This document shows positions 60,090 to 63,565 of a stretch of DNA of 64,000 nt, in pieces. Below the pieces are notes generated by a model. It saw only the letters and a program-made list of their open reading frames with translations, made no database searches and was not told where the DNA came from. The number at the start of each line of letters is the position of its first letter. Position 1 is the stretch's first letter. Both the position numbers and the translations under genes were made by a program. The stretch spans positions 19,754-83,753 of IMG/VR virus record IMGVR_UViG_3300035703_000053, one strand, 5' to 3'. The stretch comes from a virus.

Positions 60090-60392
60090 ATGACCCATCC
60101 AGAAACCATAACTATTGACGGCGTACTGTATGTGCGCCAAGATTCAATTCCAAAAGGCAAGCGCGCTGTTGTAGTGGTTGACCGTGGTTGGATTTTTGCT
60201 GGTGACGTAACCAGAGAAAATGGCCGCATTAAACTGAGCCGCGCACTTCATGTTTTTAAGTGGGAATCCATTGGCTTTGCCAAAATGGTTGAAACAGCAA
60301 AAGCAGATCTTCGACCTATTGCAGACGTAGATATTCCCGAAGGAGCAGAAATCTTTGCAGTGCCAGTGAAAGATCAATGGGGGCTCAAATGA
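60090..60392 (+). CDS. DUF6948-like protein, 100 aa
   Basis: DGVLYVRQDSIP, then RAVVVVDRGWIFAGDVTREN and KLSRALHVFKWESIGFAKM form a compact beta domain that I recall as the DUF6948 pattern in phages and cyanobacteria, followed by a Gly-rich protein as here. Function unknown. ATGA overlap with the next gene shows coupling. Confidence 0.65.
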   Translation: MTHPETITIDGVLYVRQDSIPKGKRAVVVVDRGWIFAGDVTRENGRIKLSRALHVFKWESIGFAKMVETAKADLRPIADVDIPEGAEIFAVPVKDQWGLK

Positions 60393-60652
60393 CATCTAAT
60401 GCGTTGATGCGCCCTATTGGCAACGGCTACGGCAACGGCAACGGCTACGGCGGCAACGTCTACGGCGGCTACGGCTACGGCTACAGCGACGGCCACGGCT
60501 ACGGCTACGGCTACGGCTACGGCTACGGCTACGGCTACGGCTACGGCTACAGCGACGGCCACGGCTACAGCGGCGGCTACGGCGACGGCTACGGCTACGG
60601 CTACGGCCAAGGCCACGGCACTTGCTCTCCAAATCGCAAAAGGAGACCTTGA
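60389..60652 (+). CDS. Gly/Tyr-repeat protein, 87 aa
   Basis: After MTSNALMRPIGN the protein is a run of Gly-Tyr and Gly-Asn/Asp/His dipeptides to near the end (CSPNRKRRP), encoded by GGC-TAC hexamers. Such Gly/Tyr-rich chains are flexible and may phase-separate, form adhesive surfaces or bind RNA. The array is prone to copy changes that keep the frame. It is coupled to the DUF6948-like gene and to the following DNA-binding gene. Confidence 0.6.
   Translation: MTSNALMRPIGNGYGNGNGYGGNVYGGYGYGYSDGHGYGYGYGYGYGYGYGYGYSDGHGYSGGYGDGYGYGYGQGHGTCSPNRKRRP
60417..60610 (+). repeat. GGCTAC-type hexanucleotide repeat array
   Basis: Nine perfect tandem GGCTAC copies lie at 60497-60550, within a longer run of related hexamers (GGCAAC, AGCGAC, GGCCAC, GGCGAC). 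Each unit adds Gly-Tyr or a variant to the frame. In the other frames the array encodes Ala-Thr or Ala-Val runs, which explains several spurious open frames on both strands. Confidence 0.9.
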
Positions 60653-60816
60653 TGCCCAAAAGCCCTTACGAAGGCGGCAAAAAACGTCGCCACCTTACGC
60701 TTTCAGACCAGGCCTACAACCATCTTGGAGGCCTGGTCAAAGGGGCCAAGCTTTCGCGCTCTGAAGCTCTTGAACACCTCATTGGATTGGAAACAAATAA
60801 GCCGCTGAGGTGTTAA
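60652..60816 (+). CDS. Small ribbon-helix-helix-like protein, 54 aa
   Basis: ATG 60652 (MPKSPYEGGKKRRHLTLSDQ) starts a basic protein; RHLTLSDQAYNHLGGLVKGA followed by LSRSEALEHLIGL has the beta-helix-helix pattern of ribbon-helix-helix DNA-binding proteins. It may regulate the Gly/Tyr-repeat cassette to which it is joined. Confidence 0.55.
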   Translation: MPKSPYEGGKKRRHLTLSDQAYNHLGGLVKGAKLSRSEALEHLIGLETNKPLRC

Positions 60817-62300: not shown

Positions 62301-62969
62301 TTATTCTTCGTTTGGCGTCTTCCAAAAATACTCATCAGATTCACCAAGCCTACCCCACTTAGGCGCGTGTTCTACATCGAAATAACGAGTAGAGACCTTA
62401 AAATCAGGCGTCTTTAAGTCATGATTGGTAAGAGATGGATCACACATGCGGCACCTGTTATTGGGGTAGGCACCAATCTGCCCGTTTTCTAAAACAACAA
62501 TATTATGGGACTTGTGCTCATCGGGGAATTCAGCAAAGTAAAAATCAGGTTCGTTTCGATGAGGGTGATAGTTGTCAATTGTGAACAGATAGTTGCCTTT
62601 CATTACGCCGGCGCTACGGGTCATCACTTGAAACTCCATGTTAAAGATCAAGTTTTTTTCAATGACTGTAAGCCCATGGTCAAATCCATTCCAGAACTGA
62701 AGGTCTGTTAACCCTAAATCAGGGGTTGGACTTTCTGGTTTTTCCGGATAGTTGGGGTCCCAGGACAAGAACGCACTGATAGGCAGCTTGTCATAAAGTG
62801 CACCATACTCAGTCAAGTAAGTTTCAAAATATAGAGCACGTCCTGTTAAAGACTTGCAGGTTACCCAATAACCTGGGGTGTATTCCCCGTGTCCATCGTG
62901 TAGATCACGAAGATACTCCCTTCGTACCCAAACTTTTACTGGTGGTACGTTGGCTACCAAGGTGGTCAT
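62301..62969 (-). CDS. Hypothetical protein, 222 aa
   Basis: Not recognised. MTTLVANVPPVKVWVRREYL starts a beta-rich soluble protein; His/Tyr/Asp residues (NYHPHRNEPDFYFAEFPDEH) may bind metal. The end has Cys pairs (NNRCRMCDPS). It lies between the HNH gene and the tRNA-like region, in the same direction as the HNH gene. Confidence 0.55.
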   Translation of the reverse strand: MTTLVANVPPVKVWVRREYLRDLHDGHGEYTPGYWVTCKSLTGRALYFETYLTEYGALYDKLPISAFLSWDPNYPEKPESPTPDLGLTDLQFWNGFDHGLTVIEKNLIFNMEFQVMTRSAGVMKGNYLFTIDNYHPHRNEPDFYFAEFPDEHKSHNIVVLENGQIGAYPNNRCRMCDPSLTNHDLKTPDFKVSTRYFDVEHAPKWGRLGESDEYFWKTPNEE

Positions 62970-62998: not shown

Positions 62999-63099
62999 GC
63001 ACACAGAAGGGACTCGAACCCTTATCGCATTAACTGTTTATAGCACTGCGTCCAGTGCATCAACAGATGCCGCCCTATCCAATTGGTTCGCACTGTGTG
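62999..63099 (-). ncRNA. tRNA-like RNA without a normal anticodon arm (1)
   Basis: On the minus strand CACACAG / CTGTGTG forms a perfect 7-bp acceptor, and AAGGG TTCGAGT CCCTT a standard T-arm stacked on it. The D region contains CCAATTGGATAGGG but only two plausible pairs. In place of the anticodon arm is a long irregular hairpin: GCAT, CTGTT, GCACTG with loop GACG and CAGTGC, AACAG, ATGC. No 7-base anticodon loop is present and no CCA is encoded. It resembles the tRNA-like end of tmRNA in style, but no tmRNA is evident. Confidence 0.55.
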
Positions 63100-63101
63100 A
63101 A

Positions 63102-63173
63102 TCGGTCGTGCTGGAATCGAACCAGCTTTCCACGTAGCTTGTCGCCCCGTCCTTACCAATAGACTACCGACCG
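63102..63173 (-). ncRNA. tRNA-like RNA without a normal anticodon arm (2)
   Basis: CGGTCGG pairs with ACGACCG (one mismatch) as an acceptor; T-arm GCTGG TTCGATT CCAGC is perfect; D-arm GTC TATTGGTAAG GAC is short but has the GG. The 22 bases expected to hold the anticodon arm do not form a stem with a seven-base loop. It lies three bases from the first tRNA-like RNA. It could be a decayed tRNA or a tRNA-mimic kept for its acceptor/T-arm. Confidence 0.55.
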
Positions 63174-63565
63174 AGTGACCCCCTGGTTTGTGCATCATCC
63201 GGCGTCCCGGAGCTAGGCATAGGGGGTGTTGCATGATGCAAAGCTTCAGGGCTTTACTTGCTTCAGGGCGTTTCATGCATGATCCGTCGCGCTTGCCAAA
63301 TCGGTCCCCGGCGCACCCGTGAATCAATCGGGCGGAGGTGATCAACCCTCCGGCCTGGAAACCCAGGACTTAGACGCAAACCAGGACAGGCAAGTACGCC
63401 TTCATGGGCTGGTTGCACCCTACCGACAGAGCAGTAGGGGTGGTTGATGGATCAGGTGTGTCGCCTTCTAGGCTATGTGCCTAACGCGCACAGGGACCTG
63501 ACCTCTATCACTCGTAATCATACAACAAAAAATAACACTGTGCAAATATTGTATGCAGCAGAATA
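63174..63565. other. Non-coding, GC-rich structured region
   Basis: No credible gene in 390 bases. Features include the large pseudoknot at 63178-63240, two GCTTCAGGGC direct repeats (63243-63252 and 63260-63269), and hairpins GGAGG / CCTCC (63334-63351), CCTGG / CCAGG (63354-63367), GCAAACCAG / CTGGTTGC (63376-63415) and ACCCTAC / GTAGGGGT (63417-63441). The density of pairing suggests one or more structured RNAs; strand is not clear. Confidence 0.5.
63178..63240. ncRNA. Large H-type pseudoknot
   Basis: ACCCCCT (63178-63184) pairs with AGGGGGT (63221-63227), and TGCATCAT (63191-63198) pairs with ATGATGCA (63233-63240), in interleaved order. A small CCGG CGTC CCGG hairpin lies between. Stems of 7 and 8 perfect bp make chance unlikely. 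It sits directly beside the two tRNA-like RNAs. Confidence 0.55.

Follow-up and report, generated by a model that had tools for sequence, protein, structure and literature searches.

A minus-strand array of RNA modules in an S-EIV1-like cyanophage

The window analyzed in this study comprises 64,000 nucleotides, corresponding to bases 19754-83753 of an IMG/VR virus record (IMGVR_UViG_3300035703_000053) of 83,753 bases. A virion protein of the record is 80% identical to that of Synechococcus phage S-EIVl, and a 222-aa 'ferredoxin' family gene (phrog_3704; window 62301-62969, minus strand) is 83% identical to its S-EIVl counterpart. Judged by these identities, the source virus is an S-EIV1-like freshwater Synechococcus phage. 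The 222-aa gene adjoins the RNA array described below, and related coding sequences lie directly upstream of the array in L064, L015, L038, L127, and others. A low-complexity repeat tract at 60374-60764 of the window can be read through in several frames, as Gly-Tyr, Ala-Thr or Ala-Val repeats.

The initial annotation had placed a large structured non-coding RNA at 63174-63565, in a gene-free region next to tRNA-like RNAs. We likewise found no credible ORF in the region, and a tRNA-like gene does abut it. The true unit is larger and spans approximately 63000-63509 on the minus strand, with a promoter at 63517-63545. It is a mosaic array of independent small RNA modules behind a sigma-70-like promoter, arranged in the order module A (with module D inside), I, B, C, abiF-type hairpin, and two tRNA-like elements:

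63517-63545, minus strand: sigma-70-like promoter (TTGCAC 63545-63540, 17-nt spacer, TATGAT 63522-63517), 7 nt before module A
63446-63509, minus strand: module A, hairpin GATAGAG-GTCAGG...CCTGAT-CCATC
63458-63491, minus strand: module D, with the core GTTAGGCACATAGCCTAGAAGG, located within the apical loop of module A
63375-63444, minus strand: module I, hairpin CCCTA-CTGCTCTGTCGG-TAGGG (63439-63418) plus CAACCAG...CCTGGTTTGCG
63316-63371, minus strand: module B (AAGTCCTGGGTTTCCAGGCC...), sequence conserved in ~12 loci
63287-63316, minus strand: module C (GCGCC...GGCAAGCGC), with arm variants GCGC/GCGC and GAGC/GCTC found by eye
63230-63286, minus strand: non-conserved spacer with the GCTTCAGGGC repeats and one arm of helix 2
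63175-63229, minus strand: extended form of an abiF-type antitoxin-like RNA, CACCCCCT-A-UGC-(21 nt including an apical hairpin)-GCA-CAAACC-AGGGGGU-CAC
63101-63174, minus strand: tRNA-like element 1, with acceptor, D, and T arms (ARAGORN 'tRNA-Cys aca')
63000-63099, minus strand: tRNA-like element 2, with a 7-bp acceptor CACACAG/CTGTGTG, a T arm, and a long insert with a GCACTGGACGCAGTGC hairpin (read from the sequence)

In 31 of 52 loci, module A is preceded at a distance of 5-8 nt by a TATAAT-like box with at most two mismatches, compared with ~14% expected from other offsets. These loci include the window (TATGAT) and S-EIVl, and the box is a perfect TATAAT in four loci. In the T4-like group, the promoter position before module A is occupied by ATATATAAAAGT, possibly a late promoter. 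Because the box occurs at a fixed place, transcription of the minus strand from ~63509 is probable, and module A would then probably form the 5' end of the transcript.

One helix of the predicted pseudoknot is conserved

The annotated RNA had been built around a pseudoknot of 7 + 8 bp. The arms of helix 1 (ACCCCCT, 63178-63184, and AGGGGGT, 63221-63227) and of helix 2 (ATGATGCA, 63233-63240, and TGCATCAT, ~63192-63199, the latter read from the sequence) are present as claimed, and so are both copies of the GCTTCAGGGC direct repeat (63243-63252 and 63260-63269). Dinucleotide shuffling of the region produced a perfect interleaved 7 + 8 bp pair within 80 nt in 64 of 2000 trials (3.2%), and 10 of the 161 other 392-nt stretches taken from the window also contain one. 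The pseudoknot by itself is therefore weak evidence, and comparative support was needed. The folding z-scores of the region (-1.69 for the plus strand and -2.48 for the minus strand) favor the minus strand; being modest, they were set aside as proof of structure.

Plain blastn searches of the region against phages returned the tRNA-like part only, or nothing. Searching with GATGATGCACAAACC, a 15-mer of the second arm, gave exact matches in many IMG/VR contigs, some of which proved to be truly homologous over long distances. Comparison with relatives, which the initial annotation had named as a refuting test, separated the two helices. Helix 1 survived: relatives conserve it as the outer stem of the abiF-type hairpin. 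Helix 2 was refuted and occurs in this genome only: the 18 other extended copies form no more than 5-7 of the eight pairs with their upstream sequence, and L005, a 90%-identical relative, has unrelated sequence where the helix 2 arm and the GCTTCAGGGC repeats lie.

The modules covary and are reordered among relatives

Compensatory stem changes among relatives were observed for modules A, D, and I, the abiF-type hairpin, and tRNA-like element 1. For module A, in its general form GATAGAG-N6-...-N6'-CCATC, 35 distinct sequences with 11 arm pairs were 99.5% paired, compared with 73% when partners were shuffled (0/1000 shuffles). The outer arms of module D vary between CTC/GAG, GTC/GAC, CGC/GCG, and ATC/GAT, and all 12 sequences are fully paired (100%; 0/1000 shuffles); this module is also found free-standing, for example before the tRNA-Pro of phage DSL-LC02. 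Module I combines an invariant 12-nt loop with six different arm pairs, all of them paired, a result matched by 3 of 1000 shuffles. Modules B and C are proposed as RNA modules because of their sequence conservation.

A further module, E, is absent from the window and frequent in relatives. It is an 80-nt RNA with four helices, three of which covary (34 sequences, 19 pairs, 100% paired; covariation 0.363 vs. 0.191). The copy at L128:3075-3154 (plus strand) was aligned with 33 other phage and IMG/VR copies. Module E was located in 82 IMG/VR contigs; phages S-CREM1 and DSL-LC03 also carry it, and it corresponds to no Rfam family. A scan of genome contigs gave one match, in a contig binned as Microbacteriaceae. 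L131 (CALGUV010000127.1), binned as Microbacteriaceae, carries cyanophage-type modules B and E and is probably a mis-binned phage contig. In plasmids, no array modules were found beyond tRNA matches.

Among 35 arrays of relatives, 17 different module orders occur, and modules are gained and lost even between close relatives. Homologues thus have modules in common, not one fixed molecule. The proposal of a structured non-coding RNA holds, given the homologues, the compensatory changes, and the promoter; that of a single large RNA is not supported, given the reordering. A large ornate RNA of the GOLLD/ROOL kind, which the initial annotation had brought into play, would suit the phage location near tRNAs and the dense structure. 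The GOLLD and ROOL models gave no match at gathering score, nor at E values up to 5, and no other Rfam family matched the region at gathering score. Together with the variable module order and the lack of conservation of helix 2, these results render such a molecule very unlikely.

The hairpin next to the tRNA-like elements is of the abiF type

We built a model, R1, from 81 phage abiF hairpins with canonical core, excluding the window copy. Its single match in the window was the hairpin at 63175-63229 (34.4 bits, E 1.4e-8). The Rfam model RF03085 scored the same hairpin with 26.7 bits. Since this is under the gathering cut-off of 37, we name the element abiF-type and do not file it as RF03085. 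The hairpin has the abiF layout, that is, a 6-bp outer stem, an unpaired A, a 3-bp inner stem, and a 6-nt CAAANC strand; the canonical apical loop CUCAACGAU is missing, and the window copy and 18 relatives have a hairpin instead. Its 3' arm is common to 37 IMG/VR contigs. The 81 phage hairpins covary, with 124 double-change cells versus 47 in shuffled alignments and a covariation score of 0.400 versus 0.155 (slid versions, at most 0.153).

Compact and extended abiF forms have flanks and stems in common. An extended hairpin also occurs in the AbiF leader of an Acinetobacter plasmid, where ATGCCTAG-(apical hairpin)-GCACAAATC is enclosed by CCTGCC/GGCAGG and followed by a run of T, 23 nt upstream of the AbiF start codon. 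The extended apex is thus no oddity of phages. No abiF RNA was found upstream at a Rhodococcus AbiF locus, which means that a recognizable abiF RNA does not occur at every AbiF. Taken on sequence and covariation, the identity of the window hairpin as an abiF-type RNA is well supported.

Insertions within insertions (D inside A, hairpins in the abiF apex), the HNH and GIY-YIG genes nearby, and near-perfect palindromes such as CCATTTTGTTGACGTCAACAAAATGG would also be compatible with selfish palindromic insertion elements that gather beside tRNA genes with the help of homing endonucleases. We consider this very unlikely, as the modules of the window array essentially occur once each and both loops and stems are under purifying selection.

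tRNA-like elements follow the hairpin

Element 1 starts without a gap after the abiF-type RNA. A 3-bp stem capped by a GACAA pentaloop stands where a tRNA has its anticodon arm; a 5-bp anticodon stem, a 7-nt loop, and U33 are missing, and RF00005 did not match at gathering score. In 18 aligned sequences, collected by requiring GACAA while the letters of the closing stem were free to vary, the stems were 99.4% paired, with a covariation of 0.70 versus 0.19 after shuffling; more copies exist beyond these 18. By its sequence, element 1 is not a functional tRNA. Acceptor, D, and T arms kept by compensatory change without an anticodon loop are what one expects of a processing tag, not of a decoder. 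Annotation tools mislabel this non-decoding family as tRNA-Cys or miss it.

Element 2 has homologues in L005 and S-EIVl. Neither ARAGORN nor the Rfam tRNA model called it, and it gave a weak mascRNA-like match. The tRNA-like tails are putative RNase P/Z signals. Directly after the abiF RNA, L210 and L214 have tails of ~45-50 nt with little beyond acceptor and T arm, and L019, L054, and L127 have tRNA-Pro-like sequences (TTTGGGA loop) with GGCAGTA replacing TTCGANN in the T arm.

The invariant loops on changing stems in modules A, D, I, and E are typical of protein-binding sites, and GACAA is also the loop of P22 boxB. The modules might accordingly be trans-acting RNAs for packaging, replication, or binding of phage or host proteins, with no link to defense. 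We give this explanation a low probability, because it leaves the abiF module unexplained and sits poorly with the gain and loss of modules between close relatives.

Orphan abiF RNAs are widespread in phages

The canonical abiF core, with covarying stems, is present in at least 120 IMG/VR contigs and matches 68 named phage records, among them phages of Mycobacterium, Aeromonas (T7-like), Synechococcus, Salicola, Acinetobacter (Acj61), Roseobacter (CRP-143), and Arthrobacter. Orphan copies without an AbiF gene were found in cyanophages, mycobacteriophages, and T7-like and T4-like phages. No Abi_2 protein was detected in sets of 26, 13, and 38 phage records or in six further named phages; many of the IMG/VR records are fragments, but the search covered the full length of eleven named phage records that carry the RNA. 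The whole 83,753-base source record likewise has no Abi_2 (PF07751) toxin gene. The control (OY726013) gave the expected hit, an Abi_2 gene 20 nt from the abiF RNA, which directly precedes it in the Phocaeicola plasmid.

According to ARAGORN, a tRNA follows the abiF RNA directly (-2 to +4 nt) in 63 of 144 distinct phage copies, a count inflated by related sequences, at a tRNA density of 0.29 per kb. These tRNAs represent about a dozen isotypes. Orphan abiF RNAs also occur in the tRNA clusters of Bromden and Mimi, and a compact relative in S-CREM1 (52.2 bits), annotated as abiF, lies four bases before tRNA-Gly. The variety of isotypes and phage families argues for repeated selection of the abiF-tRNA arrangement. 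In the remaining 81 copies, no tRNA was called within 20 nt. T7-like copies without a tRNA reside in capsid-operon leaders (L218:1504-1540, L344:1501-1537, L341:1502-1539), between the connector, scaffold, and capsid genes, and in PZL-Ah8 the abiF RNA comes just after the T7-type promoter-like CTGACTATAGGGA. Capsid-operon leaders and tRNA clusters are likely loci with strong expression.

The tight fusion of abiF hairpins to tRNAs, and the promoter-like box directly before module A, could also be read as a cis-acting processing or regulatory leader, whose hairpins do no more than shape the maturation, stability, or dosage of the adjacent tRNAs or tRNA-like RNAs, without contact with AbiF, and whose likeness to abiF reflects ancestry and not function. 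Such a leader is unlikely in view of the copies with no nearby tRNA, including those in capsid operons, and because loop identity with AbiF-linked RNAs is kept despite changing flanking partners.

A region of the lactococcal phage sk1 is said, in a title, to protect phage 712 from AbiF. Neither sk1 nor 712 has an abiF RNA by RF03085 or R1, and sk1 was discarded as a natural test of a counter-AbiF role. Phage sk1 has a second tRNA (L349 27645-27717, plus strand; Rfam 39.9 bits), whereas 712 has one; the second tRNA is possibly relevant to the reported protection.

A proposed decoy for AbiF, freed by tRNA processing

The abiF RNA RCd22 binds AbiF and neutralizes its toxicity in trans, and stem mutations abolish this effect (PMC12373285). 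The structure of an AbiFr antitoxin, 8VZ6, has been described (PMC12737573). The extended hairpin would thus be of the type that binds AbiF, a HEPN ribonuclease toxin, and silences it. As the phage record holds no AbiF gene, the most likely role of the RNA is that of a trans-acting decoy antitoxin that counters AbiF-type abortive infection of the host. The tRNA-like element, which directly continues the 3' end of the hairpin, is most likely a processing signal for RNase P (and RNase Z), and cleavage there would free and protect the abiF-type RNA. We assign a probability of roughly 0.6 to this reading, in which a phage transcript carries an RNA decoy for AbiF that tRNA processing sets free. The remaining modules of the transcript probably act in trans as well. 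More tentatively, and with the odds against it, the array may be an RNA counter-defense island, in which modules A, D, I, B, C, and E and the abiF hairpin serve as decoys, each for a separate host defense that is RNA-gated or targets tRNAs, are swapped between phages as cassettes, and are freed by tRNA or non-decoding tRNA-like tags.

The cultured phage S-EIVl has an unannotated array (L346:16205-16560, plus strand) with module A, an extended abiF-type hairpin, a GACAA tRNA-like RNA, and a second tRNA-like RNA, and the decoy idea is therefore testable. The array overlaps the end of the annotated CDS AHV82151. ARAGORN calls no tRNA there, and R1 gave no match, the S-EIVl copy being too extended for the model.

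Comparison with known systems

In a literature search confined largely to open-access journal papers, we found no description of the modular array, of modules A, D, I, and E, of the GACAA tRNA-like family, of a widespread abiF-tRNA fusion, or of a counter-defense role for orphan abiF RNAs. The analysis adds several undescribed structured RNA families, namely A, D, and I, and E outside the window. Cyanophages are known for the manA and wcaG RNAs (RF01745, RF01761; PMC2864571), structured RNAs among tRNAs, some beside the modules described here; they differ from the window modules in sequence and fold and have no match in the window. The abiF sRNA of S-CREM1 (PMC9964418) is of the same RNA type and likewise precedes a tRNA directly in a cyanophage tRNA cluster. 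It was assigned by an Rfam match and without a mechanism, and the other modules and tRNA-like RNAs are unannotated in that report.

With the abiF RNA (RF03085)/AbiFr, the antitoxin RNA in type III-like AbiF systems, the window hairpin shares the outer stem, the single A, the inner stem, the CAAANC strand, and an extended apex that recurs before an AbiF gene. It differs in its score under the cut-off, in the replacement of CUCAACGAU by a hairpin of 19-21 nt, in the lack of an AbiF gene in the phage, and in the fusion of the phage RNA to a tRNA-like RNA. AbiF itself is regarded as the ancestor of Cas13 (PMC12737573).

Two known phage RNAs follow the same logic, by which an antitoxin RNA without its toxin in a phage is most simply a decoy. 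Pseudo-ToxI of phage TE (PMC5086642) imitates an antitoxin RNA and counteracts an abortive-infection toxin; it arose in escape mutants against ToxIN, whereas the window RNA is a conserved, widespread natural element related to the AbiF RNA. Racr RNA anti-CRISPRs (PMC10651486) are also solitary phage copies of the RNA of a defense system, but mimic CRISPR repeats, whereas the window element resembles abiF RNA. Orphan abiF RNAs in unrelated phages, mostly unannotated and often fused to tRNAs, suggest that phages commonly answer AbiF with an antidote of their own.
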